Origin: Candidatus Tectomicrobia bacterium | GTDB lineage: Bacteria; UBA8248 | Reading direction: 5' to 3' | Length of the DNA stretch: 10,986 nt | Assembly (NCBI GenBank): GCA_016192135.1 | Contig: JACPUR010000009.1 | Location: 1 to 10,986, forward strand | In this document: one piece after another, positions 1,927-10,599 of the stretch | Layout: each line of letters opens with the position of its first letter | Position numbering within the stretch: position 1 is the first letter of the stretch | The notes under the pieces: generated by a model | Seen by the model: the letters and a program-made list of their open reading frames with translations, nothing else | Told to the model about the DNA's origin: nothing | Databases searched by the model: none | Translations under genes and position numbers: made by a program

Positions 1927-1954
1927 GTAGGGGCGGTTCGCGAACCGCCCCTAC
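1927..1954. repeat. Perfect 28-bp palindrome of the GTAGGGGCG family
   Basis: GTAGGGGCGGTTCG (1927-1940) is followed with no loop by its exact reverse complement CGAACCGCCCCTAC (1941-1954). It lies upstream of the TldE-like gene. The outer arms GTAGGGGCG/CGCCCCTAC are the same as in the elements at 7219, 8495, 9270 and 10455, while the inner part differs and is still self-complementary. Confidence 0.95.
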
Positions 1955-6248: not shown

Positions 6249-6272
6249 CCCGAATCGACGAGTCGATTCGGG
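6249..6272. repeat. 24-bp palindrome of the CGAATCGAC family
   Basis: CCCGAATCGAC (6249-6259), the loop GA and GTCGATTCGGG (6262-6272) form a perfect 11-bp stem. It starts about 10 bases after the fibre gene stop (minus strand) and before the next gene's start, so it would form an intercistronic RNA hairpin. There is no T tract, so it is not a classical terminator. The minus-strand 16-mer GTCGATTCGGGGACCC (6259 to 6244) recurs on the + strand at 10584-10599. Confidence 0.9.
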
Positions 6273-7218: not shown

Positions 7219-7246
7219 GTAGGGGCGTATTGCAATCCGCCCCTAC
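7219..7246. repeat. 28-bp palindrome of the GTAGGGGCG family
   Basis: GTAGGGGCG and CGCCCCTAC flank the core TATTGCAATC, which is itself palindromic apart from one T/C mismatch. It occupies the gap between the hub-like gene stop and the fibre gene's ribosome-binding site. Read as RNA from the minus strand it would fold just upstream of the fibre gene. Confidence 0.92.
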
Positions 7247-8494: not shown

Positions 8495-8580
8495 GTAGGG
8501 GCGAACCTTGTGTTCGCCCGTCCGTTAGATCCGACCCGGCGCACCGATTCGAAGAGGGCGATGACGAGCATCGCCCCTAC
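8495..8580. repeat. Composite 86-bp palindromic element (GTAGGGGCG family)
   Basis: The left half is GTAGGGGCGAACCTTG plus TGTTCGCCC (8495-8519), a hairpin with stem GGGCGAAC and loop CTTGT. The right half, GGGCGATGACGAG plus CATCGCCCCTAC (8556-8580), is a second hairpin with stem GGGCGATG. About 36 bp lies between them. The outer ends form 10-bp terminal inverted repeats, GTAGGGGCGA and TCGCCCCTAC. It fills most of the gap between the small unknown gene and the hub-like gene. Size and ends resemble a very small non-autonomous element, but no target-site duplication is evident. Confidence 0.88.
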
Positions 8581-8611
8581 AAAAACCTTGCTTACGGTCC
8601 ATTCCCCCCCC

Positions 8612-9148
8612 TCACGCCCCCTCGCATTCGAGGACCACCGCGCCGCGGCGCTCGACCACCCGGCGCACGATGAACGAGGCCAGCGGCAGCACGTCCTCGA
8701 GGGAGCGGCCGGCGAAGCCCACCCGCACGTCGAGCCGCCCGCCCACCACGGGCTCCTGGGCCAGGATGCGGCCCATCCTCGGGTGGCCCTCCCCGTCCGG
8801 GGCGTTCGAGAGGGTGAGGGTGAAACCCGAGAGCTCCTTCTCCCGGAAGGCCTCGAGCGGCGAGGTGCTCCCCAGGCGGCCCTGGAGGAAGCTCCCTCCG
8901 TCGATCACCCAGGCGTGTACCCCGAGCAGCGCCTCCGAGCCCTCGCCGAGCGCCACCTGGCCGTCCAGCGTCCAGCCGCCGTCCAGGAACCAGACCTGGC
9001 CGCCCTGCCCCACCAGCAGGTCGGGCGGGACCGCGCGGCAGAAGACGCGCCGCCCGTGGGCGTTCGTCAGGTGGTAGAGCACGAGGGCCCGCCGCCCCTC
9101 CCCGTGCCGGGCGAGATCGGCGATGGCGTTGTCGGTGGCCTGGCGCAT
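8612..9148 (-). CDS. Small hypothetical tail-cassette protein
   Basis: The 178-residue protein starts MRQATDNAIADLARHGEGRR and continues ALVLYHLTNAHG. A beta-rich middle follows with glycine-rich turns (LLVGQGGQVWFLDGGWTLDG), and the end includes LEDVLPLASFIVRRVVERRG. It has no membrane segment, signal peptide or enzyme motif that I recognise. It lies between the baseplate/distal-tail-like gene and the hub-like gene, so a role in tail-tip assembly is likely from position only. The ATG at 9148 has GGAGG 5 bases upstream, a strong start. A near-copy of its first nine codons lies upstream at 9211-9237 with codon 3 changed to TAG. Palindromic elements that are inverted copies of each other lie on both sides of the gene. 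Confidence 0.75.
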   Translation of the reverse strand: MRQATDNAIADLARHGEGRRALVLYHLTNAHGRRVFCRAVPPDLLVGQGGQVWFLDGGWTLDGQVALGEGSEALLGVHAWVIDGGSFLQGRLGSTSPLEAFREKELSGFTLTLSNAPDGEGHPRMGRILAQEPVVGGRLDVRVGFAGRSLEDVLPLASFIVRRVVERRGAVVLECEGA

Positions 9149-9210
9149 GTCGTCCTCCGTGTCCGCGATGGCTACGAGGGGTCCCCGAGCGGCCCCGCCG
9201 CTTGGGGCCG

Positions 9211-9237
9211 GATGGCGTTGTCGGTGGCCTAGCGCAT
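9211..9237 (-). repeat. Duplicated translation start of the small tail gene, with stop at codon 3
   Basis: This 27-bp stretch matches 9122-9148, the start of the small tail gene, at 26 of 27 positions. The one difference turns CAG (Q3) into TAG. Read on the minus strand it is ATG-CGC-TAG followed by GCCACCGACAACGCC, preceded by AAGGTGA about 7 bases upstream, so it could be translated as the dipeptide Met-Arg. A shorter third match, CCACCGACAA (minus strand), lies at 9250-9259. A 7-bp hairpin (CGGCCCC-GCCGCTT-GGGGCCG, 9190-9210) lies between the two copies. Confidence 0.85.
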
Positions 9238-9269
9238 GGGAGGATCACCTTGTCGGTGGGAAGGCTTCT

Positions 9270-9335
9270 GTAGGGGCGATGCTTGTCATCGCCCTTCCGC
9301 GGGACCGTAGGGGCGAACACAAGGTTCGCCCCTAC
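9270..9335. repeat. Composite 66-bp palindromic element (GTAGGGGCG family)
   Basis: The left half is GTAGGGGCGATGCTTG plus TCATCGCCC (9270-9294), and the right half is GTAGGGGCGAACACAAG plus GTTCGCCCCTAC (9307-9335), with 12 bp between. The right half is the exact reverse complement of the left half of the 8495-8580 element over their shared length. The left half matches the reverse complement of that element's right half with one mismatch. The two composites are therefore inverted copies around the 8612-9148 gene. Confidence 0.9.
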
Positions 9336-10454: not shown

Positions 10455-10541
10455 GTAGGGGCGTATGGCATACGCCCCTCCTCTCGGACCGGTTGGCCGA
10501 TCCGGGGACCCGATAAATGGGCGAACGCCGTTCGCCCCTAC
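10455..10541. repeat. Composite 87-bp palindromic element (GTAGGGGCG family)
   Basis: The left half, GTAGGGGCGTATG plus GCATACGCCCCT (10455-10479), is a near-perfect hairpin. The right half, GGGCGAACGCCG plus TTCGCCCCTAC (10519-10541), is a second hairpin. The middle shares GATCCG and CCGAT with the middle of the 8495 element, which has almost the same length, so the two look homologous. It lies just upstream of the baseplate-like gene on the minus strand. Confidence 0.85.
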
Positions 10542-10570: not shown

Positions 10571-10599
10571 CTCGAATCGACAGGTCGATTCGGGGACCC
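10571..10599. repeat. Palindrome of the CGAATCGAC family, second copy
   Basis: CGAATCGAC (10573-10581), the loop AG and GTCGATTCG (10584-10592) form a perfect 9-bp stem. The stretch GTCGATTCGGGGACCC (10584-10599) matches the minus strand of the 6244-6272 element exactly over 16 bases. The nonamer CGGGGACCC also occurs nearby at 10503-10511. The remainder of the 10431-10685 gap holds runs of C and G and no gene that I can support. Confidence 0.85.

Follow-up and report, generated by a model that had tools for sequence, protein, structure and literature searches.

What are the short palindromes that recur between the genes of this stretch of DNA, and why do the two arms of their stems change together? 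The window, which is the whole contig C9 of 10,986 bp, comes from a genome of 3.92 Mb in 41 contigs. A first-pass annotation had named hairpins at 8495, 9270, 1927, 10455 and 10519, and had concluded from their paired stem differences that the folded shape matters, as RNA or as cruciform DNA, rather than the primary sequence. All of these hairpins are present and the observation as a whole is confirmed, while the interpretation is only partly supported, because the shape matters but the inner word of the stem matters too. The palindromes are GTAG-type REPs, occurring singly or as head-to-head REPIN pairs. Judged from sequence, and with a probability of roughly 0.8, they would be non-autonomous mobile elements of RAYT group 4 / TnpAREP subclass 2.4, the stem word being a family tag. 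This reading builds on direct observation of the anatomy of the elements, their copy number, their covariation, the transposase genes, the copies inside those genes, the match of words and the heterodimer rule.

Anatomy and abundance of the palindromes

A systematic scan of the window returned the same plan for each palindrome unit, namely GTAG, GGGC, an inner word and GCCC. Two full palindromes (1927 and 7219) and three head-to-head pairs (8495-8580, 9270-9335 and 10455-10541) were found, all of them intergenic, lying between the long ORFs of the ORF list:

1927..1954, no strand, double-foot REP (full palindrome) with inner word GTTCGCGAAC (GGTTCG/CGAACC), in the gap between two PmbA/TldD-family genes
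7219..7246, no strand, double-foot REP (full palindrome) with word TATTGCAATA and a single uncompensated change (TAT...ATC)
8495..8580, no strand, REPIN 1, head-to-head heterodimer GAAC/GATG, two separate hairpins under DNA parameters
8495..8519, plus strand, REP, left half of REPIN 1: foot 8495-8498, hairpin 8499-8519, word GAAC-CTTGT-GTTC, sequence layout GTAG+GGGCGAAC-CTTGT-GTTCGCCC
8556..8580, minus strand, REP, right half of REPIN 1: hairpin 8556-8576, foot 8577-8580, word GATG-CTCGT-CATC
9270..9335, no strand, REPIN 2, the heterodimer of REPIN 1 in the opposite orientation
9270..9294, plus strand, REP, left half of REPIN 2: foot 9270-9273, hairpin 9274-9294, word GATG-CTTGT-CATC, sequence layout GTAG+GGGCGATG-CTTGT-CATCGCCC
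9307..9335, minus strand, REP with both feet, right half of REPIN 2: hairpin 9311-9331, word GAAC-CTTGT-GTTC as read on the minus strand
10455..10541, no strand, REPIN 3, head-to-head heterodimer
10455..10477, plus strand, REP, left half of REPIN 3: word TAT-GGC-ATA
10519..10541, minus strand, REP, right half of REPIN 3: word AAC-GGC-GTT (GAAC-GCC-GTTC)

The entries of the earlier palindrome list were correct, but 7219-7246, 8556-8580 and 9307-9335 were missing from it. It had also placed the copies inside the same outer arms, which does not hold: the arm ends differ between units, reading CGCCCGTCC at 8495, CGCCCTTCC at 9270 and CCCCTCC at 10455, with 10519 beginning ATGGGCG. In the paired units of the window GTAG is constant at the outer foot only, and five of the six REPIN halves have something other than CTAC next to the spacer.

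The contig holds other features as well. A second palindrome, GAATCGAC-N2-GTCGATTC, lies at 6252-6269 and 10574-10591; both of its copies in the genome are on this contig, near the two ends of a phage-like gene cluster, and they are possible att-like or regulatory sites. Between 5724 and 10430 runs a minus-strand gene block without Pfam matches; most of the gaps between its genes contain a REP or REPIN, and two of its genes match phage families of unknown function (phrog_8610, E 6e-17; phrog_34307, E 2e-6). An inverted repeat of dispersed appearance, TCATTTCGAGCGCAGCGAGGAATCT ... AGATTCCTCACTCCGCTTCGCTCCGTTCGGAATGACA, is seen at about 165-250 and 1980-2140, with related pieces downstream.

The abundance of the elements was compared with chance. 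The sample used, 391 kb of the genome, was picked around known copies, so its density is not that of the genome at large; in it, GTAGGGGC occurs 162 times against 9.6 expected from shuffles. At 133 of these 162 sites the sequence runs on into a hairpin whose stem has 8 bp or more and no more than one mismatch, and 96 are perfect; with the downstream DNA shuffled as a control, hairpins were obtained at 66 of 3240 sites (2%). Genome-wide, the exact pattern GTAGGGGCG-N0-30-CGCCCCTAC was counted 147 times and its reversed control pattern 0 times, and exact double-foot copies number 95 and 29 in two genomes of the same genus and 0-29 in other family members. Looped copies are represented genome-wide by 50 occurrences of GGGCGAAC-N5-GTTCGCCC and 27 of GGGCGATG-N5-CATCGCCC. 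Within this looped subfamily the loop stays CTTGT or CTCGT while the stem changes, and a search that did not require the foot found GTAG directly 5' of 25 of 28 looped hairpins, the 3' flank not being conserved. A literature search with the raw 9-mer returned only unrelated work.

Paired changes in the inner stem

For the covariation analysis, capture relied solely on the eight outermost bases at either end, so that the 12 bases in the middle could vary freely. By this capture 33 of 38 copies in the sample were fully paired and five were uncompensated. Among 35 distinct double-ended sequences, drawn from all loci and many genomes, 96.7% of the inner-pair cells are complementary, changes on both sides were counted in 98 cells versus 31 after shuffling and at all six free inner pairs, and three or four standard pair types occur at most of these pairs. 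The covariation check proposed in the first-pass annotation, carried out as pair counts on these copies, gave a score of 0.455 versus 0.113 for shuffled sequences, with 0 of 500 shuffles as high, although such shuffle counts are not probabilities, because the captured sequences are related to each other through shared words. Shifting the partner column abolishes the score. G-U intermediates cannot tell RNA from DNA here, because the reading strand of the full palindromes is arbitrary.

The claim that the folded shape matters is therefore well supported, since the covariation of the inner stem is strong across many copies and genomes. The example from which the claim started fared less well. 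REPIN 1 and REPIN 2 are one heterodimer in opposite orientations, and the contrast of GAAC with GATG at 8495 and 9270 therefore compared its two halves rather than two states of one stem. That contrast is a case of simple duplication, by which a few palindromes would have been copied often and the covariation would reflect differences between a few ancestral sequences. The many copies that share one word, as with the two most frequent words of the sample, present in 12 and 11 copies, agree with such a process. As a general account it is highly improbable in view of the two-sided changes seen at every free inner pair among the 35 distinct sequences, which come from many genomes, and of words that differ widely among relatives from at least 19 phyla.

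A purely mutational process is another option. Strand switching can correct short perfect palindromes, and template switching or gene conversion between the arms could copy changes from one arm to the other without selection on the fold. Uncompensated changes do occur, for example at 7219 and in the five of 38 captured copies mentioned above. Such a process is nonetheless very unlikely to be the explanation, as it does not account for the constancy of the CTTGT/CTCGT loop under a changing stem or for the conservation of the GTAG foot in single-foot units, nor does it predict the correspondence between word and transposase described below.

Probable cognate transposases and the word they share

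A Pfam Y1_Tnp search of the genome gave no match, and the reading that no transposase is present was overturned by a profile built from family relatives. Weak Y1_Tnp matches in a sister genus pointed to genes that carry GTAG hairpins internally and in their upstream region; a profile derived from these genes found five loci in the genome, and a broader profile gave six matches at the same five loci:

C35:142463-143053, transposase (L207), open reading frame
C1:243514-244056, transposase (L206), open reading frame
C15:38618-39103, transposase whose 5' end reads as frameshifted
C6 and C30, two transposase fragments

The gene on C35 contains an internal REPIN in frame, the right half of which is the GAACCTTGTGTTC of the window (the GAAC-CTTGT-GTTC hairpin), and the gene on C15 carries the word CACGGCCGTG both inside and upstream. 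The top NCBIfam match is NF047646, REP_Tyr_transpos (REP-associated tyrosine transposase), with E values of 4e-15 to 3e-19 and 56-69 bits for the copies of this genome, and of 4e-15 to 7e-22 and 56-78 bits overall, in each case under the cut-off of 80. PF01797 scores 15.7-18.9 bits in the genus, under its cut-off; it misses L206 and L207, and surveys based on PF01797 may therefore undercount group 4 RAYTs. In the alignment of the transposases two H, W, Q, Y and N are invariant, the genome having YVxHNP instead of YIxNNP; the HuH (NHxH), WQ and Y motifs are present, and in the C35 and C15 genes the in-frame REP lies between HuH and Tyr. A PDB comparison with TnpArep 4er8 was weak and non-significant (E 0.13). 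By their motifs and their in-frame REPs, the enzymes are classed as probable HuH/Y1 transposases of the RAYT group 4 / TnpAREP subclass 2.4 type.

For the most abundant words of the sample, AGGCATGCCT and GTTCGCGAAC, no match was seen among the transposases found in the genome, and the gene L109 of a sister genome holds the AGGCATGCCT word inside. The two words may be orphans, or their gene may have been lost or may lie in missing sequence. Other Y1 transposase regions were considered in two palindrome-carrying genomes (14 in G057 and 2 in G020) and set aside: at most a lone GTAGGGG was seen, and these enzymes probably belong to other groups because no full hairpin surrounds them. As a separate observation, the TAG of the downstream REP foot is the stop codon of the transposase in L109 (near 1725-1730), L077 (near 1439-1441) and L114 (near 2041-2046).

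The analysis was extended to relatives, of which there are at least 585; the 80 examined represent 21 or more named phyla. A GTAG hairpin was found inside the gene in 63 of the 80 (about four fifths), typically 5-12 residues after HuH with a median of 8; 62 of these 63 genes are open, in a search that favours open genes. The internal hairpin is not obligatory, since sixteen open genes are without one. In a set that joined the loci above with eight more from the search of relatives, 42 loci had both an internal and a flanking word. The two words are identical at 25 loci and non-identical at 17, against a mean of 1.2 and a maximum of 7 identical in 2000 shuffles. On a quick transposase tree of 156 columns, built without the insert and with mostly weak inner branches, the repeated words require 8 changes, the minimum being 7 and the shuffled mean 13.6. 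A clade of seven members with the word GGTTCGCGAACC has a support of 99 and includes hosts from Nitrospirota, Cyanobacteriota, Chloroflexota, Calditrichota and Planctomycetota. Words that occur more than once are grouped on this tree even where the hosts belong to different phyla.

These results run against the part of the first-pass annotation that set the primary sequence aside: the GTAG foot and the GGGC stem base are conserved, as is the loop within the looped subfamily, and the inner word is that of the flank of the cognate transposase far more often than expected. Its choice between RNA and cruciform DNA also needs revision, for single-stranded DNA is likelier given a conserved 5' foot and a 3' flank that is not, and it is probably as single-stranded DNA that the shape acts. 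When a strand becomes single-stranded, for example at the replication fork, the GTAG foot and the hairpin would be bound, cut and pasted by the HuH/Tyr enzyme; binding and cutting by foot and stem, together with mobilisation in trans, are proposed by analogy with the published biochemistry of TnpAREP. The inner stem word could be the tag read by each transposase. Only paired changes would spread, because a change in one arm would break the hairpin and leave the copied pool, and each new word would expand with its own transposase.

Hairpins retained for a role in RNA, as transcription attenuators or as stabilisers of mRNA 3' ends, would likewise have their stems preserved by paired changes. The window copies sit in gaps between co-directional genes, the REPINs fold strongly as RNA (z -4 to -6), and transcribed roles for REPs were proposed by Di Nocera et al. 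(2013; PMC3733652). Such a role is quite unlikely as the explanation, however, considering that a terminator scan of the region gave one site versus 1.2 expected, that an Rfam scan found no family at threshold, and that the conserved 5' GTAG foot stands outside the stem while the 3' flank varies. It also leaves the match between word and transposase, and the clustering of words across phyla, unexplained.

The mobile-element reading could be carried further, in that the transposase gene would store a copy of its own tag, with internal, flanking and dispersed words changing together and, in the strongest form, with a tag-encoded peptide helping in the reading. This extension is unlikely. A search for peptides encoded by such hairpins returned nothing relevant. 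If true, concerted change of the words would keep enzyme and tag linked when the gene crosses phyla.

Unlike halves and the comparison with known systems

The two halves of a REPIN carry different words as a rule. Genome-wide, a GAAC unit lies within 100 bp of 25 of the 27 GATG units, and 23 of these 25 pairs are head-to-head, with a spacer from hairpin to hairpin of 6-36 bp over the 25 pairs; no GATG-GATG pair was found in the genome. In the sample, 14 of 21 neighbouring single-foot pairs are head-to-head, none of the 14 sampled REPINs is a homodimer, and GGCC/AGGC pairs are also heterodimeric. With DNA parameters the REPINs of the window fold as two separate hairpins, and with RNA parameters every one of them closes into a single long hairpin, which in REPIN 1 and REPIN 2 is interrupted by symmetrical 2-nt internal loops. 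All 28 hypothetical homodimer versions gave a single long hairpin, as did 7 of the 15 observed REPINs. Different words in the two halves would allow each half to fold on itself instead of forming a single long palindrome, which may be the selective reason for the rule, although the long fold still being favoured in 7 of the 15 observed REPINs counts against this argument. It is offered as an explanation, in terms of folding, of why heterodimeric REP pairs are in excess, which was known but had not been accounted for.

REPINs of Pseudomonas fluorescens are reportedly two inverted REPs that form a non-autonomous unit dependent on RAYT. The present elements differ from these in RAYT group and REP sequence, and here a REP is found inside the transposase gene. 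With the REP/BIME elements of E. coli and their group 2 TnpAREP, the GTAG foot, the hairpin and the HuH enzyme are held in common; the stems of the E. coli elements require a bulge (PMC8266576), whereas the stems here are perfect. The same study of 2021 describes TnpAREP of other groups as acting on the folded single-stranded REP, with GTAG essential, and the elements described here, in which the 5' foot is kept and the 3' flank is not, fit its strand-specific substrate. An assay of a group 4 enzyme was not found in the literature examined.

Compared by description, the elements also resemble the GTAG REPs of Di Nocera et al. (2013; PMC3733652), who define families 1-24 with stems of 6-13 bp and a GTAG terminus. 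These include subfamilies whose stems differ but remain complementary, and head-to-head dimers, often 20-100 bp apart, between co-directional genes; heterodimers are in an excess for which no explanation is given. The terminus, the compensated subfamilies, the head-to-head dimers, the preference for heterodimers and the location are shared. The closest likeness is to TnpAREP subclass 2.4, equated with RAYT group 4, for which Quentin et al. (2018; PMC6006769) report canonical and "double foot" REPs and link each transposase to a REP family. Held in common are the NH-x-H, WQ and Y-x-x-x-NP motifs, stems opening with three G-C pairs, GTAG...CTAC double-foot palindromes, a patchy spread over many phyla, and REPs that flank the gene and sit in frame between HuH and Tyr. 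The identity of internal and flanking words, the rule of unlike halves and the word clades that span phyla were measured here and were not found in the text examined. The elements belong, in short, to a known kind. What is added, as far as the texts examined show, is the correspondence of word and transposase, the existence of word clades spanning phyla, and the folding argument for heterodimers. The inner word of a REP points to a transposase lineage, even across phyla, and natural pairs of enzyme and word make the recognition of perfect palindromic REPs by group 4 testable.
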